NCBI RefSeq assembly: GCF_019968905.1
Contig: NZ_CP079946.1
Coordinates: forward strand, 4,774,001-4,838,000
Length of the DNA stretch: 64,000 nucleotides
Origin: Corallococcus sp. EGB
GTDB lineage: Bacteria > Myxococcota > Myxococcia > Myxococcales > Myxococcaceae
Direction of reading: 5' to 3'
Each line of letters starts with the position of its first letter. The stretch's first letter is position 1. Position numbers and translations under genes: made by a program. The notes beneath the pieces were generated by a model. The model had not been told where the DNA came from. It made no database searches and saw only the letters and a list, made by a program, of their open reading frames with translations. This document shows positions 8,823 to 54,368 of this stretch, piece after piece.

Positions 8823-10942
8823 GTGACCCTCTTCACGAGCTCCGGTCCGCAAACCGAACGACTGGTGAGCAAGGTGGCGTGGGAACCGTTCGGCGGTCTG
8901 CGGGGCTATCAAATCAACCCACTGCCCGCTCAAACGCGTCCGGTGGCCGTGGAGTACGCGCTGGGGGATGATGGCACGCAGGCCCCCGCCAATTGCTCGG
9001 CGGCCTTCCCATCCGCCGCGAATTCGGATCTGACGGGGCGGGTGCGCTCATTGCGCGTCAACCGGGATGACTTCACTCCGGGCAGCACGTTCAACAACGG
9101 CGGCATCTACAAGCGCACCTTCACGTGGAGCGCGGATCAGGTCGTGCGGACGGACACGTGCCTGCTGGGGGCGACGACTCCCAGGACGGAACTGTATGCC
9201 TATGATCGGACCCTGCGGCTGACGTCCGCGTCCCGGCCTCCTGGCAACTGGGACGCGACCGGTGGCGCGTTTGCGGAGCAGACCTTTGGCTACGATCGCC
9301 GTAGCAATCGGTCACAGCTCTCCCAGTTCTACAGCACCTTCTCATACTCGCTCGCATACGACACCGGGGCTCGCGCGGACCTGCTGATGTCAGTGGCGCC
9401 CCCCGGTGGGCAGTACAGGGAGACGAATTTCACCTACGACGCGGATGGGCGCGCAGTGACCAAGGAATCGGGTCACTACATGTCTGGACAGCCCGCGAAC
9501 CTGATGGAGTTCCGCTATGCACCCTTCAACGCGGCGGAAGGGCAAGGGGGCAGCGCGAGAGTCTGTCTTCCGTGCCGTACGGGTCAACGGCCTGACGTAC
9601 AACTACTTCTACGATGCCCTGGGACGCAGGCGCGCCAAGGTCAACCCGTTCAATCGGCGGGATGAATTCTTCCATGGCACTGGCAATCAGCTGCTGGTGG
9701 ATCAGGGATGGAATGAGCCCATCCCGCAGAGTCAGGGCAACTTCCGTGTGGTGGATGATTACGTATGGCTCGGAGGCCATCCGTTGATGATCTTCCGGGG
9801 CAGGCTGGACGCGACACAGAACGTTCGGGAGCCTGACTCGACCGTGGATTGCAGGCGTGACGGTGAAGCTGCGGCGTGAGGTGTCTACTTCCCCGTCACA
9901 GACATCATCGGTAAGCCGGTTTTGATGTTGAACAGCAATGGACTTGTGGCAGGCGCGGCGGACTACCAGCCCTTTGGCCACGTCAACCGGCTTTCCACTC
10001 CGGACAGCTCAAACCTTCCCTACCTGGATGAGGACCGAGAGACCTTCACTTCTTTCCGGCAGCCCGCGGAGAACAGCAACGTCCAGGGGCGTGCGCGCGC
10101 CCGGTTCATGTTCGTCGACATCCACGATGGGCAGGACGACGTGACGGTCTACAGGAATGACCCCGTGGCTCCCCAGGAGGTGACCTATCAGGACCCGGAG
10201 ATGAGCCAGGTGATCACGCCCTGGTACTCGTTGCCCGACGATGGGATGGGCGTGCGTATCTCCGCGGGCCCGGAGGATAGCTCCGGACCGAATACCTCCC
10301 TGGGCGCGGCGATGGAAAGCTTCGAGTACCAGCGCTACCAGACGGGTGCGCAGCCATTCTGGACGCCCCTGCGCTTTGCGGGTCACTACTACGACGCGGA
10401 GACGGACCTCTTCGAGAACTGGAACCGATACTACGACCCGAGTGTGGGGCGGTATCTCCAGCCGGAGCCGTTACTCGCGATGGGGCCGGCGGTGCTGCCG
10501 ACGTACGCATATGCGATGAACAATCCGGTCAATGTAACCGACCCTTCCGGAAAGGACCCGATCATCAGCCTGCAGACCTACATTGGTCTTTACTATGGCG
10601 TTGGATTGGGATTGCTCGGTGGTGCGGACGTCAGCCTCCAGTTCTCGCCAACGGTCGGCCCCTACATTCAAGTGCAGAATCACCCGATTCAGGCGCAGCG
10701 TGGTTACGACACCACGTTTGGGCGGATCATCTGCTATTCAGGCAAGGACCTTTCCAATCGCCCCCCACGAAGAGGCTCATATCCTGCAGTCGGACTTCTT
10801 GGGGGACGCGTACCTCACGACTCATTTGATGCTCCAGGGAATCTCGCAGGCCTTTACTGGAACTCACTACGCGCTGAACCCTCTTGAGTGGGGACCGAAC
10901 CAGAACCCGCCGACCCCTTGGCCGACGCAGATTCCCAAGTGA
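8823..10942 (+). pseudogene. RHS/YD-repeat polymorphic toxin gene, 5'-truncated and disrupted
   Basis: The sequence encodes the C-terminal half of an RHS-repeat protein but in pieces. Residue strings such as FTYDADGRAVTKES, TYNYFYDALGRRRAKVN, YFPVTDIIGKPVLML and the core-end RYYDPSVGRYLQPEP with NPVNVTDPSG are RHS hallmarks. The large N-terminal part is missing; the remnant starts 8 bases after the receiver gene. Three lesions break it. One is a one-base excess in the G run at 9546-9550. The second is a TGA at 9877-9879 where a Cys codon is expected before GVYFPVTD. The third is a one-base excess in the C run at 10761-10766. Correcting the last restores a variable tip with HEEAH, a possible HExxH zinc motif, and the ending NPLEWGPN. 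Two of the lesions lie in homopolymers, so sequencing error is possible for those. A lipoprotein gene follows by 3 bases. Confidence 0.8.
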
Positions 10943-10945
10943 ACC

Positions 10946-11425
10946 ATGAAGCCTGTTCTTCTTATCATTCTCGTGGCTGCTGCTTCGGCCTTGTGGGCTT
11001 GTTCGTGGCTGCCCGGCAAAAAGAGAGAGCCAACAGTGGAACGGTCGGCACGCCTCAAGTCGGCGTTGACGGAGTCATGCATCAATGAGGGATTGCATCG
11101 ACTCCGGTTGCGGAGCACCGGCAATCTGGATAACCAGCTGTTTGTGATAGCGGAACCTGATGGGCCATCAATGGCCCATCAGGTTCCTGTGAGGATTCAG
11201 CATCACAAGGTTCTTGGGCCCGCCTTCATCCTGGTCGCGGTGACGACATTGCCACCTGATCGCGTGGGTGAGGCGGATTACCGGCAGGCGGAAGAGTGGA
11301 CTGGAGAGATACTTCAGGGCGTTCTCGACGCGTGCAAGGTATCCGGCCCGGAGTCGTGCGTTCGGTGCCAGCATGAGGCGTGCAACGTGCCGTGCACACC
11401 TGGCCGAACTGGACGTCAGCTGTAG
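10946..11425 (+). CDS. Small lipoprotein next to the RHS remnant, possible immunity protein
   Basis: A 159-residue protein with a short signal and lipobox ALWAC (C19), then a charged segment KKREPTVERS. The mature part has Cys residues concentrated near its end (CVRCQHEACNVPC). I do not recognise the family. It starts 3 bases after the stop of the restored RHS frame, the usual place for the immunity gene of a polymorphic toxin. That is the only evidence for such a role. Codon use is less GC-biased than the surrounding genes, like that of the RHS tip, which fits joint acquisition. A rho-independent terminator follows at once. Confidence 0.6.
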   Translation: MKPVLLIILVAAASALWACSWLPGKKREPTVERSARLKSALTESCINEGLHRLRLRSTGNLDNQLFVIAEPDGPSMAHQVPVRIQHHKVLGPAFILVAVTTLPPDRVGEADYRQAEEWTGEILQGVLDACKVSGPESCVRCQHEACNVPCTPGRTGRQL

Positions 11426-11441
11426 AACGTCGTGAGCGAGA

Positions 11442-11482
11442 CCCTGGAGCCGCGTTCGGTTGCTCCAGGGCCTTCCTGTTTT
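11442..11482 (+). terminator. Rho-independent terminator
   Basis: A perfect 9-bp stem, CCCTGGAGC (11442-11450) with GCTCCAGGG (11462-11470), and an 11-base loop. It is followed by CCTTCCTGTTTT. It ends the RHS/lipoprotein transcript. Confidence 0.85.
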
Positions 11483-11843
11483 GAGGTTGGCCCCCTCCCA
11501 TCGTGGCGCGGTGCGGTCACCTCAACGTCGACGCTGCGCATGAGGCCCATAGCGCACTGCATCAGCCGATTGACAGCACTGCGCGTGCGGTCACGCGCTT
11601 GCAAATTGGCAAAGGGGGCTGGTATTTCTTCGTCAATCGAACGAACTCGCATGTTCGCGGTTGGCGGGGACGCGGGACGACTCCAGGTGGCAGGAGCCCC
11701 GGCGGCGGGAGACAGCGGATTCTCCTCTGGCGTATGTCGGTGTGAGTGACGCATTGCGACGCGCGGGTGGCGGCTTACAGCAGCTTCTAATTTCTTCGCC
11801 GTAAGAACGAAGTCATCCCAGCAAGACAACCCGGAGGGGACTC
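11483..11843. other. Gene-free stretch upstream of the glucan locus
   Basis: No convincing gene on either strand: the open frames here have no ribosome-binding site, no recognisable motif and no coding-type third-position bias. Base composition is more mixed than in the flanks. It must hold the promoter of the glucan operon. Near the 3' end are short inverted repeats: CTTAC (11772-11776) with GTAAG (11799-11803), and CTTCG (11792-11796) with CGAAG (11806-11810). These could be operator sites for the ROK regulator, but the arms are only 5 bp. GGAGGGG (about 11831-11837) is the ribosome-binding site of the next gene. Confidence 0.45.
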
Positions 11844-12608
11844 ATGCTTCGCAACAAGCGTTTCGCGTGGACGTTGGCGGTCGTCGGAGTTTTCGCGACG
11901 GCGGGGCTGGTGGGCGCCTGTGACCCCGAGGATGAGAAGCCCACTCCCAGCCCCCAGAGCGACGCCGGCACCAAGACGGACGCGGGCACGAACACCGACG
12001 CGGGCACGAACACCGACGCGGGGACCAACACCGACGCGGGCACCAATACGGATGCCGGGACGACGACAGACGCGGGCACCACCACCGACGCGGGCACCGA
12101 TGCCGGCACCCAGACGTCGCTGCCCCTGGCGGTCGACGGTACCTGGGCGGCCAGCGGCTACATGGGCTCAGGCGGTGGTAACCAGGGCGGCCTGGTGGAC
12201 GAGCCTGTCTGCCACACGCCCCGTCCGGGCTCGGGCCTGGGCAACTGCCACAAGTTCACCGCCACCCAGAAGGCGGACTTGTGGGCCGGCGTCTTCTGGC
12301 AGTTCCCGGAAGGGGCCTGGGCGGATGACCCGCGGCCCGGCTTCCAGGTGCCGGATGGCGCGAACTCCGTGTCCTTCTACGCCTGGGGTGAATCCGGCGG
12401 TGAGATCGTCGACTTCTTCGTCGGTTACGAAGACAAGGATGGCTTCACGAAGAAGATCAACGTCACGCTGACCACCGAGCCCAAGCAGTACACGTTGGAC
12501 ATCAGCAAGGTCCGTTACGGTGCGGTCGGCGCGGGCTTCGGCTGGTCGGCGGGTGGGCTGGACGTCAAACCGCTGGTCTTCTTCCTCGACGACATCCAGT
12601 GGCACTGA
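11844..12608 (+). CDS. Secreted lipoprotein with DAGT repeats and a carbohydrate-binding-like beta-sandwich
   Basis: A 254-residue lipoprotein: signal peptide, lipobox LVGAC (C26), then about 50 residues of TDAGTN repeats as a stalk. The globular domain (about 95-254) has many aromatic residues and ends in VFFLDDIQWH, the last-strand pattern of galactose-binding-like and CBM-type beta-sandwiches. The domain contains two Cys (VCHTP, GNCHK) that may pair. It is the first gene of the glucan locus, 50 bases before the ROK regulator, so a role in holding beta-glucan at the cell surface is likely. That is inferred from context and fold; I do not recognise the exact family. A close functional relative may be the lipoprotein at 25352. 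Confidence 0.75.
   Translation: MLRNKRFAWTLAVVGVFATAGLVGACDPEDEKPTPSPQSDAGTKTDAGTNTDAGTNTDAGTNTDAGTNTDAGTTTDAGTTTDAGTDAGTQTSLPLAVDGTWAASGYMGSGGGNQGGLVDEPVCHTPRPGSGLGNCHKFTATQKADLWAGVFWQFPEGAWADDPRPGFQVPDGANSVSFYAWGESGGEIVDFFVGYEDKDGFTKKINVTLTTEPKQYTLDISKVRYGAVGAGFGWSAGGLDVKPLVFFLDDIQWH
11962..12114 (+). repeat. Coding repeat encoding TDAGT units
   Basis: About eight imperfect tandem copies of an 18-base unit (roughly acSaacaccgacgcgggc) encoding TDAGTN/TDAGTT. It is the same kind of stalk as in the lipoprotein at 3263, but with a different unit length. Confidence 0.85.
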
Positions 12609-33315: not shown

Positions 33316-34290
33316 ATGCTCACGCCTTCCCCGCCGCTGGACCCTGCTACCGCGAGACACTTGTCCCTGTTGCGGACGCTGGGCGAGCCGGAGCTGTCGC
33401 CGTCCTCGCGGTGGCAGTGGCTGGCGTGGGATGCGTCGTCGCGCTACCTGCTGTCGGTCCAGAAGCAGGGCGGCGTCTCGCTGCGATGGTGGGACCTGCA
33501 CGCGGAAACCCATCAGCCGTACGCGGCGAAGTCCATCCCCGGCTGCGTGGCCGCGTGGTTCCTGCCCGACTCTCAGCGGCTGTTGTCGGTGACGGTGCGG
33601 GGCACCCTCCAGACGTGGTCCGTCTCCGATGGCCAGTTGCTGTCCACCGTGGAGACGGGCGGCTCCATCTCCCACGCTTTCCTGTCCCCGGATGGGACTC
33701 GCCTGCTGCTCGTGGCGAGCGTGGGCCGTGTGCTGCTCTGGGATCTGGAGCGGCGCTGGCTCGTCTGGAGGAAGGAAGAACCGTGGCAGGTCCATGGCTG
33801 TGCGCTCTCTCCCGATGGCGCGTTCGCCGCCGTGGGGGCCGCCGAGGACCTGCAGAACGCCGCCACCCGTGCGTTCGTCCGCCTCTGGGACGCGCGGACT
33901 GGACTGCGCATCGCGACCCGAGCCTTCAACGCGCGGCGGACCTGGGCCGTGTCCTTCACTCCGTCCGGGGAGCATCTGGTCGCCGCGACGTCCTCGGGGG
34001 AATTGCTGTTCCTGACACTGCCCGCACTGGACGTCGCGCGGAGCCTCAAGGCCCCCGCGTCGTTCGCGCTGCATCTGGAGTTCAACCCGTCAGGCTCACT
34101 GCTGGCGGCCAGCCCTGACACGAGCGCGTTCGCCATCATTGACGTTCGCGACGGTCAGCATGTCTTTGGCTACTCGGACCTGGATGACCAGCAGGGGAGT
34201 ACCGCGAACTTCTCTCCCGACGGACGCTTCGTGAGCTGGGGCATGGACGACGGGAAGGTAGGCATCTGGGGCGTGAAGCCGCGTAGCTAG
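33316..34290 (+). CDS. WD40-repeat protein
   Basis: A 324-residue beta-propeller of about six to seven WD40-like blades. Blade ends include GTLQTWSVSDGQLL, GRVLLWDLERRWL, FVRLWDARTGLRI and GKVGIWGVKP. Repeated FSPDG or LSPDG strings open each blade. There is no signal peptide or other domain, so it is a cytoplasmic scaffold of unknown partners. It is flanked by 188 bases upstream without any recognised feature and stands alone in its transcript as far as can be seen. Confidence 0.88.
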   Translation: MLTPSPPLDPATARHLSLLRTLGEPELSPSSRWQWLAWDASSRYLLSVQKQGGVSLRWWDLHAETHQPYAAKSIPGCVAAWFLPDSQRLLSVTVRGTLQTWSVSDGQLLSTVETGGSISHAFLSPDGTRLLLVASVGRVLLWDLERRWLVWRKEEPWQVHGCALSPDGAFAAVGAAEDLQNAATRAFVRLWDARTGLRIATRAFNARRTWAVSFTPSGEHLVAATSSGELLFLTLPALDVARSLKAPASFALHLEFNPSGSLLAASPDTSAFAIIDVRDGQHVFGYSDLDDQQGSTANFSPDGRFVSWGMDDGKVGIWGVKPRS

Positions 34291-34349
34291 CGGCTTATGG
34301 GAAAGAAAAGCCTGATGGGCAGCCATGAGGATGCGCTAGCTTGCAGTTC

Positions 34350-36005
34350 ATGCGAACAATTGCCCTCTGTTTGACCCTGGCATTGCTGACAGCCTTCCCG
34401 GCTCACTCCCAGCCCACGGAGACCGCTCGTGACCTTGAAGTCGATGGGGAGTGGCTGTTCCTTGATTCGATAGGGGATGCCACCCGGATGGCGTGGGCTC
34501 CGGATGGCTCTGGCCGCCTGTTCGTCTCGACGATGTCTGGAAAAGTCTATGTCGTGGTGAACAGGGTGTTGCAGCCCGTTCCGTTCATCTCCGAGTCATT
34601 CAGTCAGGGCTGGAACCAGGAGGGCCTTCTGGGCATGGCCTTTGATCCCGACTTCGCGAACAACCACTACGTCTATTTCTTCGCGGCAATGCCGGGCTAC
34701 ACGCTGCAGATCTTCCGGTACACCGACGTGGGCGGCATCGGCGTCAATCGCACCGTCATCGTGGATGGGATCCAGGCGGGAGTGCTCGACTATGACGGCG
34801 GTGGCCTGACTTTCGGTCCGGATGGCATGCTGTACTTCGGGGTGGGGAATCTCCATGGCTACCGCAGCGAAGATGATCTGACGAGCGCAGCGGGAAAGAT
34901 CCACCGAGTGCGCCCGGATGGCACCGTGCCCACTGACAATCCCTTCTACGATGGGCCGGGCCCCAACGTGGACAGCATCTGGGCGCAGGGGTTCTGCAAT
35001 CTCTATGGATTGGTTTTTCAGCCGGGGACCGGCCGCCTTTGGGCCAATGCCTCGAGTCCGGAAAACCTTCAGATCTTCAGCGTGAGTCCGGGCGACCATG
35101 GCGGGTGGCCCCACTACAACTACACGCGGCCCCCGGGCTACCTCGCGCCCGTGTACTCATACATCCCTGCCTATGATTTCAACTCGTTCACGCCGACAGG
35201 CGCTGTGCGGCAGAACGGAGTCGCGACCTTCACACTCCAGGACGGCTACTTGGACTCTACCTGGTACCACAAGGGAACGCGGGTCATGATCAGGGACGTG
35301 GTGGATCCCAGCTTCAACGGTGACTTCCATGTCACCGGGCATCCCTCCCCACAGTCTTTCACCGTGGATCAACCGGAGCCGGATGCAGTGAGCGGCGGCG
35401 GACAGCTCATGCGGTGGTTCCAGGGCGAGTACGTCATGGGAGGCATGTTCTATGAGGGCACGCGCTTCCCCGCGAGCTACTCCGGCAACTACCTCTACAC
35501 GGATTTCCACGGGTATCTTCACCGGATCCGGTTCGCGACAGATGGCTCCGTGGCCGCGGAGGACATCATCGTGAACATGTGGTCCTACGCCGGCTTCGTT
35601 GACGTGAATGAGGGACCGGACGGGGCGTTGTATGTGCTGGCCCACTACGGACGGATCGTGCGGATCACCCCGGTGCCCGGAGCCCAGGCCCTGATCGTGT
35701 CACCCTCGGACGTCGTCATCCCGGAGGGTGAAACCAGGACGGTCATGGTCTCCCTGGCCATGCCTCCCTCCGTGGACGTCTGGGTCAAGGTGACGGCGCA
35801 GGGTGGTGATGGCGACCTCTCCGTGGTGGATGGCGCCTCGCTTCGCTTTACGCTCGAGAACTGGAGCGTTCCGCAATTCGTGACGCTGGGCGCGGCGCAG
35901 GATGCGGATGCGGAGGTCGACCACGCGTCCTTCACGTTCACGCCGACGAAGGATTTCCCCGCGGTCACCATCCAGGCCCGCACGGAGGAGGACGAGGTCC
36001 CATAG
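34350..36005 (+). CDS. Secreted PQQ-dependent sugar dehydrogenase-like beta-propeller with C-terminal Ig/Calx-beta-like domain
   Basis: A 551-residue exported protein; signal MRTIALCLTLALLTAFPAHS. A six-bladed propeller of the soluble glucose dehydrogenase/sorbosone dehydrogenase type follows. Marks are MAWAPDGSGRLFVSTMSGKV, GLLGMAFDPDFANNHYVYFF, GGLTFGPDGMLYFGVGN, GKIHRVRPDG and DVNEGPDGALYVLAHYGRI. Residues about 450-550 form an Ig-like domain of the Calx-beta sort (VSPSDVVIPEGETRTVMVSL, DHASFTFTPTKDFP). The enzyme would oxidise sugars in the periplasm or outside, but whether it binds PQQ cannot be shown here. ATG 34350 was chosen because the signal begins there; a TTG at 34341 also exists. 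Confidence 0.85.
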   Translation: MRTIALCLTLALLTAFPAHSQPTETARDLEVDGEWLFLDSIGDATRMAWAPDGSGRLFVSTMSGKVYVVVNRVLQPVPFISESFSQGWNQEGLLGMAFDPDFANNHYVYFFAAMPGYTLQIFRYTDVGGIGVNRTVIVDGIQAGVLDYDGGGLTFGPDGMLYFGVGNLHGYRSEDDLTSAAGKIHRVRPDGTVPTDNPFYDGPGPNVDSIWAQGFCNLYGLVFQPGTGRLWANASSPENLQIFSVSPGDHGGWPHYNYTRPPGYLAPVYSYIPAYDFNSFTPTGAVRQNGVATFTLQDGYLDSTWYHKGTRVMIRDVVDPSFNGDFHVTGHPSPQSFTVDQPEPDAVSGGGQLMRWFQGEYVMGGMFYEGTRFPASYSGNYLYTDFHGYLHRIRFATDGSVAAEDIIVNMWSYAGFVDVNEGPDGALYVLAHYGRIVRITPVPGAQALIVSPSDVVIPEGETRTVMVSLAMPPSVDVWVKVTAQGGDGDLSVVDGASLRFTLENWSVPQFVTLGAAQDADAEVDHASFTFTPTKDFPAVTIQARTEEDEVP

Positions 36006-36776: not shown

Positions 36777-37322
36777 TCAGGCGTCCTTGTCGTCGTCATC
36801 ATCGTCGTCGAGGATGTGGCACTTGCCGGCATCCTCGTCGAGCGCCTTGCCGACGAACTCCTTCACCAGGTCATCGCCGTTGAAGACCAGGGAGAGGTTG
36901 ACCTGTTCGCCGCCCACGTCCTCCTTCTTGTCCAGACGGAGCTTGCCGCCGAGCGCCGTCGCGCTCCCGTCGACGCGCGCGCCCGCGGGCACCCGCACCT
37001 CGCCGCCGATGCACACCACGTCGCCCTTCACCTTGGCGCCGGGCTCCAGGATGACGCGGCCCCGGATGGCCACCACGTCGTTGTCCACCACCGCGCCCTT
37101 CTTCACGATGACGTCGCCGTCCACCGCCACCGCGTCGTGGATCTTCTCCCCGGGCTCGACGACCAGGTTCGTCCCCTGGACCGCCTTGCTCCCGTCCTTG
37201 ACGTTGACGCAGACGGCCTTGGCGGGAGCCTTGGCCGGCGCCTTCTTCGCGGGGTCCGCCGCCAGGGCCGGCAGGGCCAGCGAGCAGGCGAGGAGCATCA
37301 TGGGCAGGAAGGGACGGCGCAT
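36777..37322 (-). CDS. Exported polymer-forming (bactofilin-like) protein with acidic tail
   Basis: A 181-residue exported protein. ATG 37322 has GGAGG just upstream; signal MRRPFLPMMLLACSLALPALA. The core (about 50-140) has short beta-helix rungs of the bactofilin/polymer-forming type: AVAVDGDVIVKKGAVVDNDV, VAIRGRVILEPGAKVKGDV and VCIGGEVRVPAGARVDGS. Classical bactofilins are cytoplasmic; this one carries a signal peptide, so it would act in the envelope. The C-terminus is a run of Asp (ILDDDDDDDKDA) that could bind cations. Its neighbour is a cation/proton antiporter on the same strand, which lies upstream by 84 bases. Confidence 0.75.
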   Translation of the reverse strand: MRRPFLPMMLLACSLALPALAADPAKKAPAKAPAKAVCVNVKDGSKAVQGTNLVVEPGEKIHDAVAVDGDVIVKKGAVVDNDVVAIRGRVILEPGAKVKGDVVCIGGEVRVPAGARVDGSATALGGKLRLDKKEDVGGEQVNLSLVFNGDDLVKEFVGKALDEDAGKCHILDDDDDDDKDA

Positions 37323-37406
37323 GGCGGAGACCTCCAGAACGCGGAAGGGGAGCGGCATGCCCTTGCTACGGACGGCCGCAACCCCCATTGCATCCGGGCC
37401 CGCGCT

Positions 37407-51576: not shown

Positions 51577-51609
51577 AAAAGCCCCACTCCCGGTGCGCGG
51601 AAGTGGGGC
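51577..51609 (-). terminator. Rho-independent terminator of the sigma-factor operon
   Basis: A perfect 8-bp stem, GCCCCACT (51581-51588) with AGTGGGGC (51602-51609). On the minus strand it is followed by TTTTCC. It ends the transcript coming from 54320 and separates it from the amine dehydrogenase operon. The rest of 51449-51655 shows nothing else. Confidence 0.85.
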
Positions 51610-51655
51610 CTCATGATGCGGCGTGGCAATTTCGTGACCTTGAAGGCCAGGTGCG

Positions 51656-53188
51656 TCAAACCGGGTTTTCCGTCCGGGGGAAGATGGGCTCCGGCATTCC
51701 CCGGCCGCGGTAGCCGAACCGGGTGCGGATGACCGCGCCGAAGGCCAGCGGGATGAGGACGAGGTTGAGGAACACGCCCAGCACCGGGATGTGGCTGACC
51801 AGGAGGATGAGGCCCAGGCCCAGGGCGAGCACCACCGCCTGCGTCTTGCGGCCGCGCATCACCGGCAACCGCGTGCCCACCTCGCTGGCGATGGCCGCGT
51901 AGCTGAGCGCCGTGCCCAGCATGGAGGCGACCAGGAGGGCGAACGCCACCGGGATGCCGATGAGCGTGATGCTCAGGACGATGCTCAACAGGAAGAGGGC
52001 CACCATGCCCACGACCCCCACGAGGAAGTTGCGGCTGGGGTTGGCGCGGATCTCGTCGCCCAGCTCCTTCATGCGCGCCGGGAAGAACATCTGCCCCAGG
52101 AAGCCCAGGCCGAAGAGGAGCGCGAACTGGAGGATGAAGGACGCCAGGCCGCCGCCGTGGTCGTCGTGGTCGTCATCGTCGTCGTGGTCCGCGGACGCGT
52201 CGTAGTCCTGCGTGTCCCGCATGCCGCGCTTGATCTCCCCGGCCACCATGCGGCCCAGGCCCGCGCCGCCGAAGGACTCCAGGCTGCCCTCCACGACGGC
52301 GCCGTCCGCCTTCTGCACCTGACCGCCAAAGGCGGACACGTCGCCCTCCACCTGGGCGTTGGGCCCCAGGATGACGTTGCCTCCGAAGGCGTGCGCGTCT
52401 CCCTCCACGTGGCCCTGGATCTCCAGGTTGCCGCCGAAGACAACCGCGTCGCCCTCCACCATGCCCTTCACGACGAGGTTGCCGCCATAGACGACGGCGC
52501 TCTCCACGGACTCGCCCTCCTTCACCTCCAGGGACTGTCCGCGCGCCACCACGTCCCGGGCGCCGCGCTTGCCCTTCCTGTGCTTGAAGCTGTCGCGGAA
52601 GCTCTTGATCTCATCGCGGATGCGCTGCTTGGCGGCCTCGGCCTCTGCCTTCGCGGCCTGCTTGGCCTCGTCGCGGGCGCGCCGCGCCTCTTCACGGGCG
52701 TCCTCGCGCGCCTGCGCGATGTCCTCCGGCGTCGCGTCCTCGTCCAGCTCCGGCGGCGCGGGGGGCGCCGGGGGCGCGGGCGGGGTGGCGGCCGCGACGG
52801 GCGGGGCCACGGGCGGCGCGGGGATGCTGGCGGTGGGGCTCGTGCCGGACTCCTTCTCCTTCGCGGTCAGCGGGCGCAGGGTGAAGATGGAGCCGTCCTG
52901 CTCCAGGTGGAGCGAGTAGGCGCGGGCCACGGTGCGCAGGGCCTGCTCGGCGGTGATGCCGCGCAGGCGCACCTCCGCCGGGGTGTCCAGGTCGCCGGTG
53001 ACGACCAGGTTCAGGCCGCCCTTCTCCGCGATGGTCTTGAGCGCGTCGCGCAGCGAACCGCGGAAGCTCACGTCGATGGTGCGGGCCGGAGCTGTGGCGG
53101 CCGCGGGGGCGGCCGGGGCGGCTTCCGCGAGCGCCACGGGGGCGCCGAGGAGGAGCGTCGGAAGCAACAGGCGGGGCAGGATCTTCAT
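51656..53188 (-). CDS. Membrane protein with STN domain, coiled coil and polymer-forming beta-helix domain
   Basis: A 510-residue exported protein; signal MKILPRLLLPTLLLGAPVALAEA. Residues about 38-105 are a secretin/TonB short N-terminal (STN)-like domain (VSFRGSLRDALKTIAEKGG, AEVRLRGITAEQALRTVARA). A Pro/Ala linker and a charged helical stretch follow (about 155-215; AREDAREEARRARDEAKQAA). Residues about 225-325 are bactofilin-like rungs: VYGGNLVVKGMVEGDAVVFG, GNLEIQGHVEGDAHAFGG and VILGPNAQVEGDVSAFGG. Next comes an Asp/His-rich loop (DYDASADHDDDDDHDDHGGG), and the C-terminal part has four hydrophobic helices. It lies 8 bases after the anti-sigma factor gene. I know no characterised protein with this order; envelope-stress sensing or surface scaffolding is inferred. 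Confidence 0.8.
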   Translation of the reverse strand: MKILPRLLLPTLLLGAPVALAEAAPAAPAAATAPARTIDVSFRGSLRDALKTIAEKGGLNLVVTGDLDTPAEVRLRGITAEQALRTVARAYSLHLEQDGSIFTLRPLTAKEKESGTSPTASIPAPPVAPPVAAATPPAPPAPPAPPELDEDATPEDIAQAREDAREEARRARDEAKQAAKAEAEAAKQRIRDEIKSFRDSFKHRKGKRGARDVVARGQSLEVKEGESVESAVVYGGNLVVKGMVEGDAVVFGGNLEIQGHVEGDAHAFGGNVILGPNAQVEGDVSAFGGQVQKADGAVVEGSLESFGGAGLGRMVAGEIKRGMRDTQDYDASADHDDDDDHDDHGGGLASFILQFALLFGLGFLGQMFFPARMKELGDEIRANPSRNFLVGVVGMVALFLLSIVLSITLIGIPVAFALLVASMLGTALSYAAIASEVGTRLPVMRGRKTQAVVLALGLGLILLVSHIPVLGVFLNLVLIPLAFGAVIRTRFGYRGRGMPEPIFPRTENPV

Positions 53189-53196
53189 GGACACGC

Positions 53197-53703
53197 TCAG
53201 GCTTCGGAGAGGGACGGAGGAGGGGAACCGGCCAGGCGCTTCAGGCCGAAGAGCGACGTGAACACGACGAAGGCGACGACGCAGGCCACCGCCAGCCCCG
53301 CGGTGCTCCACAGGGCGTGCGCCCCGCTGAACAGGCCTTCCACGAGCGCGCGCCCGTCCCGCACGCTGGACGCGAACGCGGTGCCCATGCGGCCGAGCGC
53401 CCGGTCGTTGGTGAACAGGAAGCCCAGCCCCACGCCCAGGGACGTGAGGAGGATGCACAGGCCCGTCCACACCTCGCGGCGCTGGGGCACGGGGCTCTCC
53501 GCGACGCGGGCCATCACGTTCACGACGAGCGACGGAGGCGGCAGCGGATCCGCCAGCCGGTACAGGTCCTGCTCCAGCAGGCGGTGCTCCTCCATCAGGG
53601 CGGCGCACGCCTCGCACTCCGCGGCGTGGTCCAGGGCCGGGCCCTCACCGGACTCCAGCTCCGCGAAGAGGACTTCCAGGTCGGGGCAGGGGGTGGGGCT
53701 CAT
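53197..53703 (-). CDS. Zinc-finger anti-sigma factor
   Basis: A 168-residue protein. The N-terminal HxxxCxxC zinc motif is H26-AAE-C30-EA-C33. The sigma-binding helix follows (LMEEHRLLEQDLYRL). Two hydrophobic helices (about 80-95 and 133-153; WTGLCILLTSLGVGLGFLF, LAVACVVAFVVFTSLFGL) place it in the inner membrane. Its ATG overlaps the sigma-factor stop, as is usual for such pairs. Confidence 0.88.
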   Translation of the reverse strand: MSPTPCPDLEVLFAELESGEGPALDHAAECEACAALMEEHRLLEQDLYRLADPLPPPSLVVNVMARVAESPVPQRREVWTGLCILLTSLGVGLGFLFTNDRALGRMGTAFASSVRDGRALVEGLFSGAHALWSTAGLAVACVVAFVVFTSLFGLKRLAGSPPPSLSEA

Positions 53704-54320
53704 TTCGTCTCCTCCTCGGCGGGCGCCATCTTCTTGCGCAGCTTTTCACGGGCGCGGAACAGGCGCGCCATGATGGTCCCGGGCGCGCAGCCCATGATCT
53801 GCGCGATCTCCTTCGTGGTGCGCTTCTGGACGTAATAGAGGGCCAGCACTTCACGGTCGTCCACGGAGAGCGTCTCCATGGCGGCCTCCAGCGACTGCCG
53901 CTCCTCGCGCGCGATGGCCCCGTCCTCCTGGGACGCCTCGTTGCTGGGGAGCACCTCCTTCATGGGCTCCAGCTCCTCCGTGCGCACCTTGGTGCGGCGG
54001 CGGAGCAGGTCCAGGCAGAGGTTGCGGGTGATGGCCAGCACCCAGAGGTCGAACGGGCGCGTCTCGTCGTAGCGGTGGAGGTTCTGGTACGCGCGCAGGA
54101 GGGCCTCCTGCGCGACCTCCGCGGCCTCGGCCTCGCTCTGGAGCAGGCGCAGCGCCAGCCCATACACCGGGCGCTGCACGCTGCGCACGAGCGCTTCGAA
54201 AGCGGACGGGTCCCCCTTGCGGGCGGCCAGCACGTCCGCCTGCCAGGGGAGGGGGGCGGCGTCCTCAGCCATCACCATTCCAATGGCCATGGGGAGCGAG
54301 TCGAGGGCAAGAGCGTTCAC
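53700..54320 (-). CDS. ECF-family RNA polymerase sigma factor
   Basis: A 206-residue ECF sigma factor. Region 2 spans about 38-105 (FEALVRSVQRPVYGLALRLL, AEAAEVAQEALLRAYQNLHR, FDLWVLAITRNLCLDLLRRR). Region 4 is about 140-195 (ETLSVDDREVLALYYVQKRT, TKEIAQIMGCAPGTIMARLF). The start is GTG 54320 or ATG 54290; the latter gives MAIGMVMAED. It would direct the polymerase to envelope-stress or nutrient genes when freed from the anti-sigma factor encoded next to it. It probably drives its own operon. Confidence 0.92.
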   Translation of the reverse strand: MNALALDSLPMAIGMVMAEDAAPLPWQADVLAARKGDPSAFEALVRSVQRPVYGLALRLLQSEAEAAEVAQEALLRAYQNLHRYDETRPFDLWVLAITRNLCLDLLRRRTKVRTEELEPMKEVLPSNEASQEDGAIAREERQSLEAAMETLSVDDREVLALYYVQKRTTKEIAQIMGCAPGTIMARLFRAREKLRKKMAPAEEETK

Positions 54321-54368
54321 GCCCTGGACTACGGCCCTGCGGAAGGGCCATTGCGCCGCCGTCGAGCA

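Follow-up and report, generated by a model that had tools for sequence, protein, structure and literature searches.

Within a 64,000-nucleotide stretch of the Corallococcus sp. EGB genome (NCBI RefSeq assembly GCF_019968905.1, contig NZ_CP079946.1, forward-strand positions 4,774,001 to 4,838,000; here called the window, with positions counted from its first letter), three minus-strand genes at 54320-51656 encode, in this order, an extracytoplasmic function (ECF) sigma factor, an anti-sigma factor, and a third protein that joins an STN domain, bactofilin-fold rungs and a membrane domain. We favor, with moderate confidence, the view that the trio is an autoregulated sigma operon responding to stress of the cell envelope, probably of the inner membrane, and that the third protein acts as scaffold and feedback partner. 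Gene linkage, domain folds, a charge-based topology, motif conservation and shared downstream genes, as judged from sequence comparison and structural models, argue for this view. An earlier note, made from the letters of the window, had described a sigma factor, an anti-sigma factor and an STN/polymer-type membrane protein in one operon, and the three genes are arranged accordingly:

53700..54320, minus strand: ECF sigma factor (regions 2 and 4); 206 amino acids, GTG start
53197..53703, minus strand: anti-sigma factor; 168 amino acids, Hx3Cx2C motif (H26, C30, C33) and two predicted transmembrane segments
51656..53188, minus strand: third gene; 510 amino acids, ATG at 53188; membrane-anchored STN/bactofilin-fold protein

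The sigma and anti-sigma genes overlap by 4 bp, and the ATG of the third gene lies 8 nt beyond the anti-sigma stop codon. We compared 54 loci from the window's family (53 fetched loci and the window). The 4-bp overlap is kept in 53 of them. The third gene directly follows the sigma pair in 51; the three loci without it are contig ends, with only 483 to 614 nt left beyond the sigma gene. The order and spacing of the genes support their assignment to one operon, and the linkage drawn in the earlier note holds across the family; it would have been contradicted by a third gene standing apart from the pair in every relative, which is not what the loci show.

A single match to the sigma factor at E ≤ 1e-40 per genome was found in 54 of 59 family genomes. 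Three of the other five (G020, G034 and G041; 2.1 to 2.7 Mb) also lack the core of the third protein, that is, its rungs plus transmembrane part. In G004, a copy of the core is cut by a contig end and has one stop within the match, and G025 fell outside the core matches listed. In the 9.43-Mb genome of the window, the third gene occurs once at full length. Among 146 genomes of the phylum, 92 match a profile of the core (A3) at E ≤ 1e-10; of these, at least G118 is matched only through a weaker hit (E = 8e-17), similar to those of the smaller bactofilins. We fetched 32 additional loci, 31 from other families and one (G004) from the window's family. A related sigma gene lies upstream of the third gene in 27 of the 31, a count that is biased since these loci were found via the third gene. 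Two of the remaining four (L144 and L156) are cut by contig ends; L164 and L166, the latter a second third-gene copy in its genome, have no adjacent sigma gene. The sigma operon, apparently uncharacterized, is conserved in the window's family and present in ten other families of the phylum.

The sigma protein matches the Pfam models Sigma70_r2 (E = 5e-18) and r4_2 (E = 1e-15), with no region 3 model among the Pfam matches listed, and passes TIGR02937 (113.4 bits; cut-off, 42.9). With regions 2 and 4 and without region 3, it is an ECF sigma factor. The top-scoring curated model is that of SigW (NF007223), at 115.8 bits; this score and that for TIGR02948, also SigW (98.1 bits), are under the cut-offs of 209 and 243.1 bits, which places the protein outside SigW as delimited by the curated models.

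The anti-sigma factor of the window has a small N-terminal Hx3Cx2C domain and a membrane anchor, the features of zinc-type Class I (ASD) anti-sigma factors. Of 54 family loci, 37 have the motif, as do 20 of the 24 other-family loci scored (L146, L141 and L145 are left out of the count); two of the four other-family proteins without it (L147 and L150) have no transmembrane segment and resemble wrong-frame picks. Zinc and non-zinc forms are similarly mixed within anti-sigma groups described in passages of PMC7406223. No Pfam anti-sigma model matched the window protein at E ≤ 1, and NCBIfam gave weak matches only (antisigma NF052375, E = 7.5e-4, far under cut-off). The prediction is two transmembrane segments for 47 of the 54 family loci and three for the other 7. 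Because only about 39 residues separate the two in the window protein (residues 78-96 and 136-154), it has no FecR-like periplasmic domain; a large periplasmic C-terminal domain with an STN-like subdomain, as in FecR-type anti-sigma factors, is not found in it.

The third protein runs from a signal peptide through an STN domain, a Pro/Ala-rich linker, a charged helix, the rungs and a variable acidic linker to a hydrophobic C terminus. Its parts map as follows:

52868..53080, minus strand: STN domain, residues 37-107; profile, sequence and structure matches
52577..52729, minus strand: charged helix, residues 154-204; length varies among relatives
52265..52558, minus strand: bactofilin-fold rungs, residues 211-308; AlphaFold2 model and VIA-align
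52148..52216, minus strand: acidic/His-rich juxtamembrane linker, residues 325-347; not conserved
51728..52147, minus strand: hydrophobic C-terminal domain, residues 348-487, read as five transmembrane segments; charge pattern and hydropathy

The charged helix was already seen in the earlier note, as was the exported STN domain, for which the signal peptide together with profile, PilQ and structural-model matches now provides support. A hydrophobic N terminus is present in 49 of 49 aligned orthologues, a figure that is partly built in, as starts were picked by a score favoring this; the alignment leaves out L073, L075, L077 and L100 (contig ends) and L101 (truncated). The STN region of the window protein scores 17.1 bits with Pfam PF07660, under the gathering cut-off of 28.4, and the Pfam model matched 22 of 26 diverse orthologues at E ≤ 0.1. 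The region also matches part of the PilQ model TIGR02515 (E = 7e-7, far under that model's cut-off), and an alignment profile of it searched against PDB sequences matched PilQ at 2.4e-6. By sequence, the domain lies nearest to PilQ. The predicted model of the domain has a beta-alpha-beta-beta-alpha-beta-beta fold and matches STN structures. In VIA-align, it fits FecR-like anti-sigma domains (4m0h/4m0n, Z 10.0; PupR 6ovk, Z 9.9), receptor signaling domains (FoxA, Z 9.7; FpvA, Z 9.5) and secretin N0 domains, with Z of about 8 to 10 across all three groups.

The rungs score 24.2 bits with Pfam Bactofilin (PF04519; gathering cut-off, 27.9), and this model matched just 9 of 26 diverse orthologues at E ≤ 0.1. 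AlphaFold2, run with 19 sequences, gave the third protein a mean predicted local distance difference test score (pLDDT) of 59.1, with mostly 61 to 74 in the STN domain and poor values in the linkers and transmembrane part. The rungs were modeled as a beta-helix, with block-mean pLDDT of 79 to 91 for residues 221-300 and of 59 and 68 at the ends. This model superimposes in VIA-align on the Thermus thermophilus bactofilin 6rib with Z 13.3 (root mean square deviation [rmsd], 1.6 Å over 89 residues; 28% identity), on 6ria with Z 11.9 and on BacA (2n3d) with Z 10.5; the next beta-helices below the bactofilins had Z 9.5 and an rmsd of about 10. No bactofilin was among the best 50 of 182 Foldseek matches; re-ranking of the Foldseek matches by VIA-align puts bactofilins in places 1 to 3. 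As modeled, the rungs have the bactofilin beta-helix fold, in agreement with the bactofilin-like rungs proposed in the earlier note, which would have been undermined by the lack of any rung-like beta-helix.

Four membrane helices had been proposed for the C terminus. We counted transmembrane segments from hydropathy and charge. Mean numbers of Lys plus Arg in the 49 orthologues were 3.96 and 3.82 in two loops, 3.80 in the tail and about 0 in two short turns. This pattern fits five segments better than four, with the N terminus and the rungs outside and the C terminus inside. By hydropathy alone, 27 of the 49 had five segments, 13 had four and 9 had a larger number. AlphaFold applied to the transmembrane part alone gave four long helices at a mean pLDDT of 62.5, which is too weak to settle the count. 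Matches to EI24, Fig1 and Multi_Drug_Res were below cut-off, and we took them as matches of hydrophobic composition.

The earlier note also suggested a surface-sensing device in which polymer state or metal binding would control the sigma factor, and it listed a His/Asp cluster, which lies in the acidic linker. The cluster is indeed present in the window protein, as a metal sensor of this kind would have it; the linker, however, is gap-rich and variable, with at least two His residues in just 14 of 49 orthologues and at least six acidic residues in 29 of 49. The cluster is thus not a conserved metal site, and we rejected metal sensing as highly improbable.

The STN domain varies in number. In the 27 sigma-linked loci of other families, we detected no STN copy in 5 (two of which, L149 and L150, look STN-like by eye), one in 11, two in 10 and three in 1. 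Because the rungs and transmembrane part persist while STN is detected zero to three times, we regard the former, on comparative grounds, as the constant core and STN as a variable module. Third-protein relatives with a signal peptide, rungs and transmembrane part and no detected STN are seen at L145, L151, L164 and L165. In L160, from family f7, three detected STN domains come after an additional N-terminal stretch that by eye resembles PEGA.

These observations bear on signaling of the FecIR/TonB type, the mode suggested in the earlier note, in which an outer-membrane partner would dock on STN and the signal would pass to the anti-sigma factor. In its favor are the modeled fit to FecR-like anti-sigma and receptor signaling domains (Z 9.5 to 10.0) and the detection of more than one STN in 11 of the 27 sigma-linked relatives from other families. 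Secretins, however, match STN about equally well; the anti-sigma factor, with its short stretch between membrane segments, offers no docking domain; the operon includes no receptor gene; and STN went undetected in 5 of 27 relatives that keep rungs and membrane part, even if two are STN-like by eye. We consider such signaling improbable.

Side-by-side reading of the sequences upstream of the sigma genes revealed a conserved motif of the general form G(C/A)AAT-N16/17-CGTA, an exact copy of which precedes the operon:

54330..54354, minus strand: predicted autoregulatory ECF promoter, GCAAT-N16-CGTA; exact motif, sigma GTG 9 nt downstream

The exact motif is found in 43 of 54 family loci and the relaxed motif in 53, whereas 200 shuffles that preserve composition only gave on average 0.01 and 0.57 loci; the relaxed match in L086 is probably due to chance, and L081 has no match. 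Of 27 other-family loci, 25 have the relaxed motif, which takes the form GAAAT-N16/17-CGTA in 24; the match lies just past the estimated sigma start in L141 and L145, and L146 (cut by a contig end) and L158 have none. We then scanned whole genomes, those of the family with the GCAAT form and those of other families with the GAAATA form only. Exact sites in four family genomes numbered 71, versus 16 for the reversed pattern (G000, 17 versus 4; G023, 15 versus 1; G038, 19 versus 6; G007, 20 versus 5). In four other-family genomes, GAAATA-N15-CGTA gave 20 sites, versus 0 for the reversed pattern (4, 3, 6 and 7 sites in G090, G110, G122 and G113, each versus 0).

We infer that the motif is the promoter read by this sigma factor. 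The motif might instead be read by another sigma factor, with the operon being one target and not the source of the regulon. ECF sigma factors can share promoters, as in Bacillus, and further ECF sigma factors exist in the window genome, where the sigma query gave 70 first-look candidates, just one of which passes E = 1e-40. Set against this are the presence of the motif before this very sigma gene in 53 of 54 family loci (relaxed form, counting L086) and 25 of 27 other-family loci, and the finding of the other-family targets with GAAATA, the form that precedes the sigma genes of those families, each group having been scanned with its own form only. We consider a different sigma factor unlikely.

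For comparison of the predicted regulons, we fetched 68 of the 71 family motif sites and 30 of 51 sites of a swapped control, CGTA-N16-GCAAT. At 33 of the 68 motif sites, the gene start that follows has a relative behind a motif site of a different genome, giving 33 pairs, some of which represent broad families (serine hydrolases, permeases) or are possibly out of frame. The swapped control yielded a single pair, matching over a short run of 53 residues, from a sample with less than half as many sites and roughly a fifth of the pairing chances. Checking one or two members of each target family against Pfam, we found a zinc-ribbon/PspC gene behind the motif in 7 of 8 scanned genomes (PspC confirmed for two of the seven, E = 8.6e-15 and 2e-19), Yip1 and DUF2807 in 4 genomes each, a MacB_PCD/FtsX permease in 3, and AI-2E family and YidD proteins in 2 each. 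A 73-amino-acid TM2/DUF5683-like protein, under Pfam cut-offs, lies behind the motif in 4 genomes. PspC, a feature of stress responses of the phage shock protein (PSP) type, is among the predicted targets. Two motif sites seen only in G023 (L187 and L228) lie upstream of genes that by eye resemble DUF4097 (Toastrack) and GlsB/YeaQ.

An exported bactofilin-like gene also lies behind the motif in 7 of 8 scanned genomes. In the window, it is about 14 kb away from the operon and has its own exact motif copy:

37367..37391, minus strand: second exact copy of the predicted promoter; motif match
36777..37322, minus strand: soluble bactofilin-like protein, exported, and a predicted member of the regulon; start placed at the ATG that gives a signal peptide, upstream ATG at 37358 possible

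The corresponding protein of G000 matches A3 at E = 9e-17, and neither of two exported bactofilin-like proteins tested has a Pfam match. Predicted targets other than the third gene are scattered across the genome. The shared motif suggests an autoregulated envelope-stress regulon resembling the Bacillus SigW regulon, and the predicted targets point to inner-membrane or envelope stress as its likely theme; the surface sensing and polymer-state control of the earlier note are hypothetical.

In the mechanism that we propose, the anti-sigma factor would hold the sigma factor at the inner membrane. Stress, which we take to be membrane stress, would free the sigma factor to transcribe its own operon and its regulon from G(C/A)AAT-N16/17-CGTA promoters; the products would include PspC, Yip1, MacB/FtsX, DUF2807 and TM2-like proteins and the second exported bactofilin-like protein. 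The third protein, made together with the stress response, would be exported with the N terminus leading and held in the membrane by its C-terminal domain, with STN and rungs exposed to the periplasm. The rungs presumably polymerize. Most likely the protein would serve both as a membrane-tethered scaffold and as a feedback partner that touches the anti-sigma factor and sets its activity, most simply via contacts between membrane segments; self-association of STN domains along a bactofilin assembly is one possible way to report assembly state.

The odds that the third protein regulates, as opposed to being a pure scaffold, seem to us about even. A regulatory role is suggested because the third gene almost invariably adjoins the sigma pair while the other targets are scattered, and because the anti-sigma factor has no sensor part. 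The third protein could instead be an effector only, a stress-induced, membrane-tethered periplasmic scaffold with no part in signaling. Its gene lies behind the sigma factor's own predicted promoter, the second exported bactofilin-like target is not adjacent to the pair, and the rungs-plus-transmembrane core occurs elsewhere without a sigma neighbor, all of which would suit an effector; the adjacency in 51 of 54 family loci, in contrast to the scattered targets, and an anti-sigma factor devoid of a sensor domain would not. We give this alternative a substantial chance, somewhat short of even. More tentatively, myxobacteria may possess a bactofilin system outside the cytoplasm that is governed by a sigma factor of its own. 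In it, an anchored protein (with zero to three STN domains, encoded beside the sigma pair) and a soluble one would assemble in the periplasm under envelope stress, and the anchored one would report the assembly state to the anti-sigma factor and so close a feedback loop; we find this conceivable, if rather doubtful.

Several observations weigh against the view of an autoregulated envelope-stress operon with a scaffold and feedback partner. Site numbers alone are weak proof of the regulon, for which the shared genes carry the weight, because the 51 swapped-control sites come from the same four genomes (G000, 7; G023, 19; G038, 14; G007, 11), and G023 holds more of them than of motif sites (15). 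Matches with at most one mismatch are at chance level in the window (5 versus 4.56 expected). About half of the motif sites have no partner, some will be chance, and the control for pairing was the smaller sample. As for linkage, third-gene relatives stand without an adjacent sigma gene in L164 and in the second copy L166, the other-family count carries the sampling bias described above, and rungs-plus-transmembrane proteins occur without an annotated sigma neighbor in haloarchaea and cyanobacteria.

The surroundings of the operon contain one further candidate element:

51578..51612, minus strand: terminator-like hairpin behind the operon, with a short U tail; a 66-nt stretch folds at -28.7 kcal/mol (z -2.6)

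This hairpin is absent from the output of a consensus terminator scan. Upstream, a neighboring open reading frame, which we take to be TruD, ends 48 bp before the operon. The G+C content of the window dips to 0.61-0.62 at 10001-12000 and 34001-36000, versus about 0.70 around. Draft Corallococcus/Myxococcus contigs L007, L014 to L018 and L022 end within the third gene, mostly in the Pro/Ala-rich linker or the charged helix, and L010 ends just before the STN domain; these ends are probably assembly breaks at GC-rich sequence.

Among known proteins, the T. thermophilus bactofilin and Caulobacter BacA, on which the modeled rungs align, are cytoplasmic filament proteins. In contrast, the rungs described here follow a signal peptide, have STN in front and precede a membrane domain, which suggests that proteins of bactofilin fold occur on the outward face of the inner membrane. 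Searching the openly licensed literature for periplasmic, exported or membrane-anchored bactofilin as phrases gave no match, and no paper on the operon or on an exported bactofilin was among the matches listed. A tblastn search of 72,556 plasmid records matched 4, which come from haloarchaea and Nostoc; in three, the protein carries the annotation "polymer-forming cytoskeletal protein." These matches run from the rungs into the transmembrane part (35 to 53% of the query, 26 to 33% identity). Unlike in the operon, no sigma pair is annotated within the 1.5- to 2.5-kb flanks of the three examined, and only about 40 residues precede the match, no STN search having been made in them. Rungs with a C-terminal hydrophobic part are therefore not peculiar to the phylum; what sets the present case apart is that they are combined with STN, an ECF pair and a regulon that shares a motif.

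Like FecIRA-type systems, the locus combines an ECF sigma factor, a membrane anti-sigma factor and an STN domain. Unlike in FecIRA, STN resides on a third, membrane-anchored protein, the anti-sigma factor has no STN-bearing C-terminal domain, and the operon has no TonB-dependent receptor. The predicted regulon also recalls PSP/Toastrack neighborhoods. According to PMC11237479, beta-helical Toastrack proteins form stress modules together with PspC; the paper mentions an operonically linked sigma factor and a zinc ribbon, and proposes that Toastrack proteins provide surfaces for docking close to the membrane. Its main text does not contain the terms bactofilin, STN, ECF or "myxo." The beta-helical partner here, in contrast, is an exported bactofilin fold.

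A further close parallel is SigW-RsiW of Bacillus subtilis. In that system, YvlC is PspC, YknW to YknZ are Yip1/MacB-like proteins, and the -10 element of promoters is CGTA. This last string was not found in passages of PMC3498285, in which the core SigW regulon includes yvlABCD and yknWXYZ. Both regulons contain envelope membrane proteins. The best curated model for the sigma factor is SigW (115.8 bits), and the anti-sigma factor is a membrane protein with the zinc motif, of which RsiW is named as a carrier in part of PMC7406223. The two systems differ in that the sigma factor scores below the SigW cut-off of 209 bits, the anti-sigma factor has two predicted transmembrane segments, and the operon, in a different, Gram-negative phylum, has an exported bactofilin/STN third gene. 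A predicted promoter, a target list and a putative role can now be attached to this apparently uncharacterized sigma operon, and the comparison suggests that PspC, Yip1 and MacB-type proteins stand under one ECF sigma factor in Gram-negative bacteria, in parallel to the Bacillus SigW regulon.

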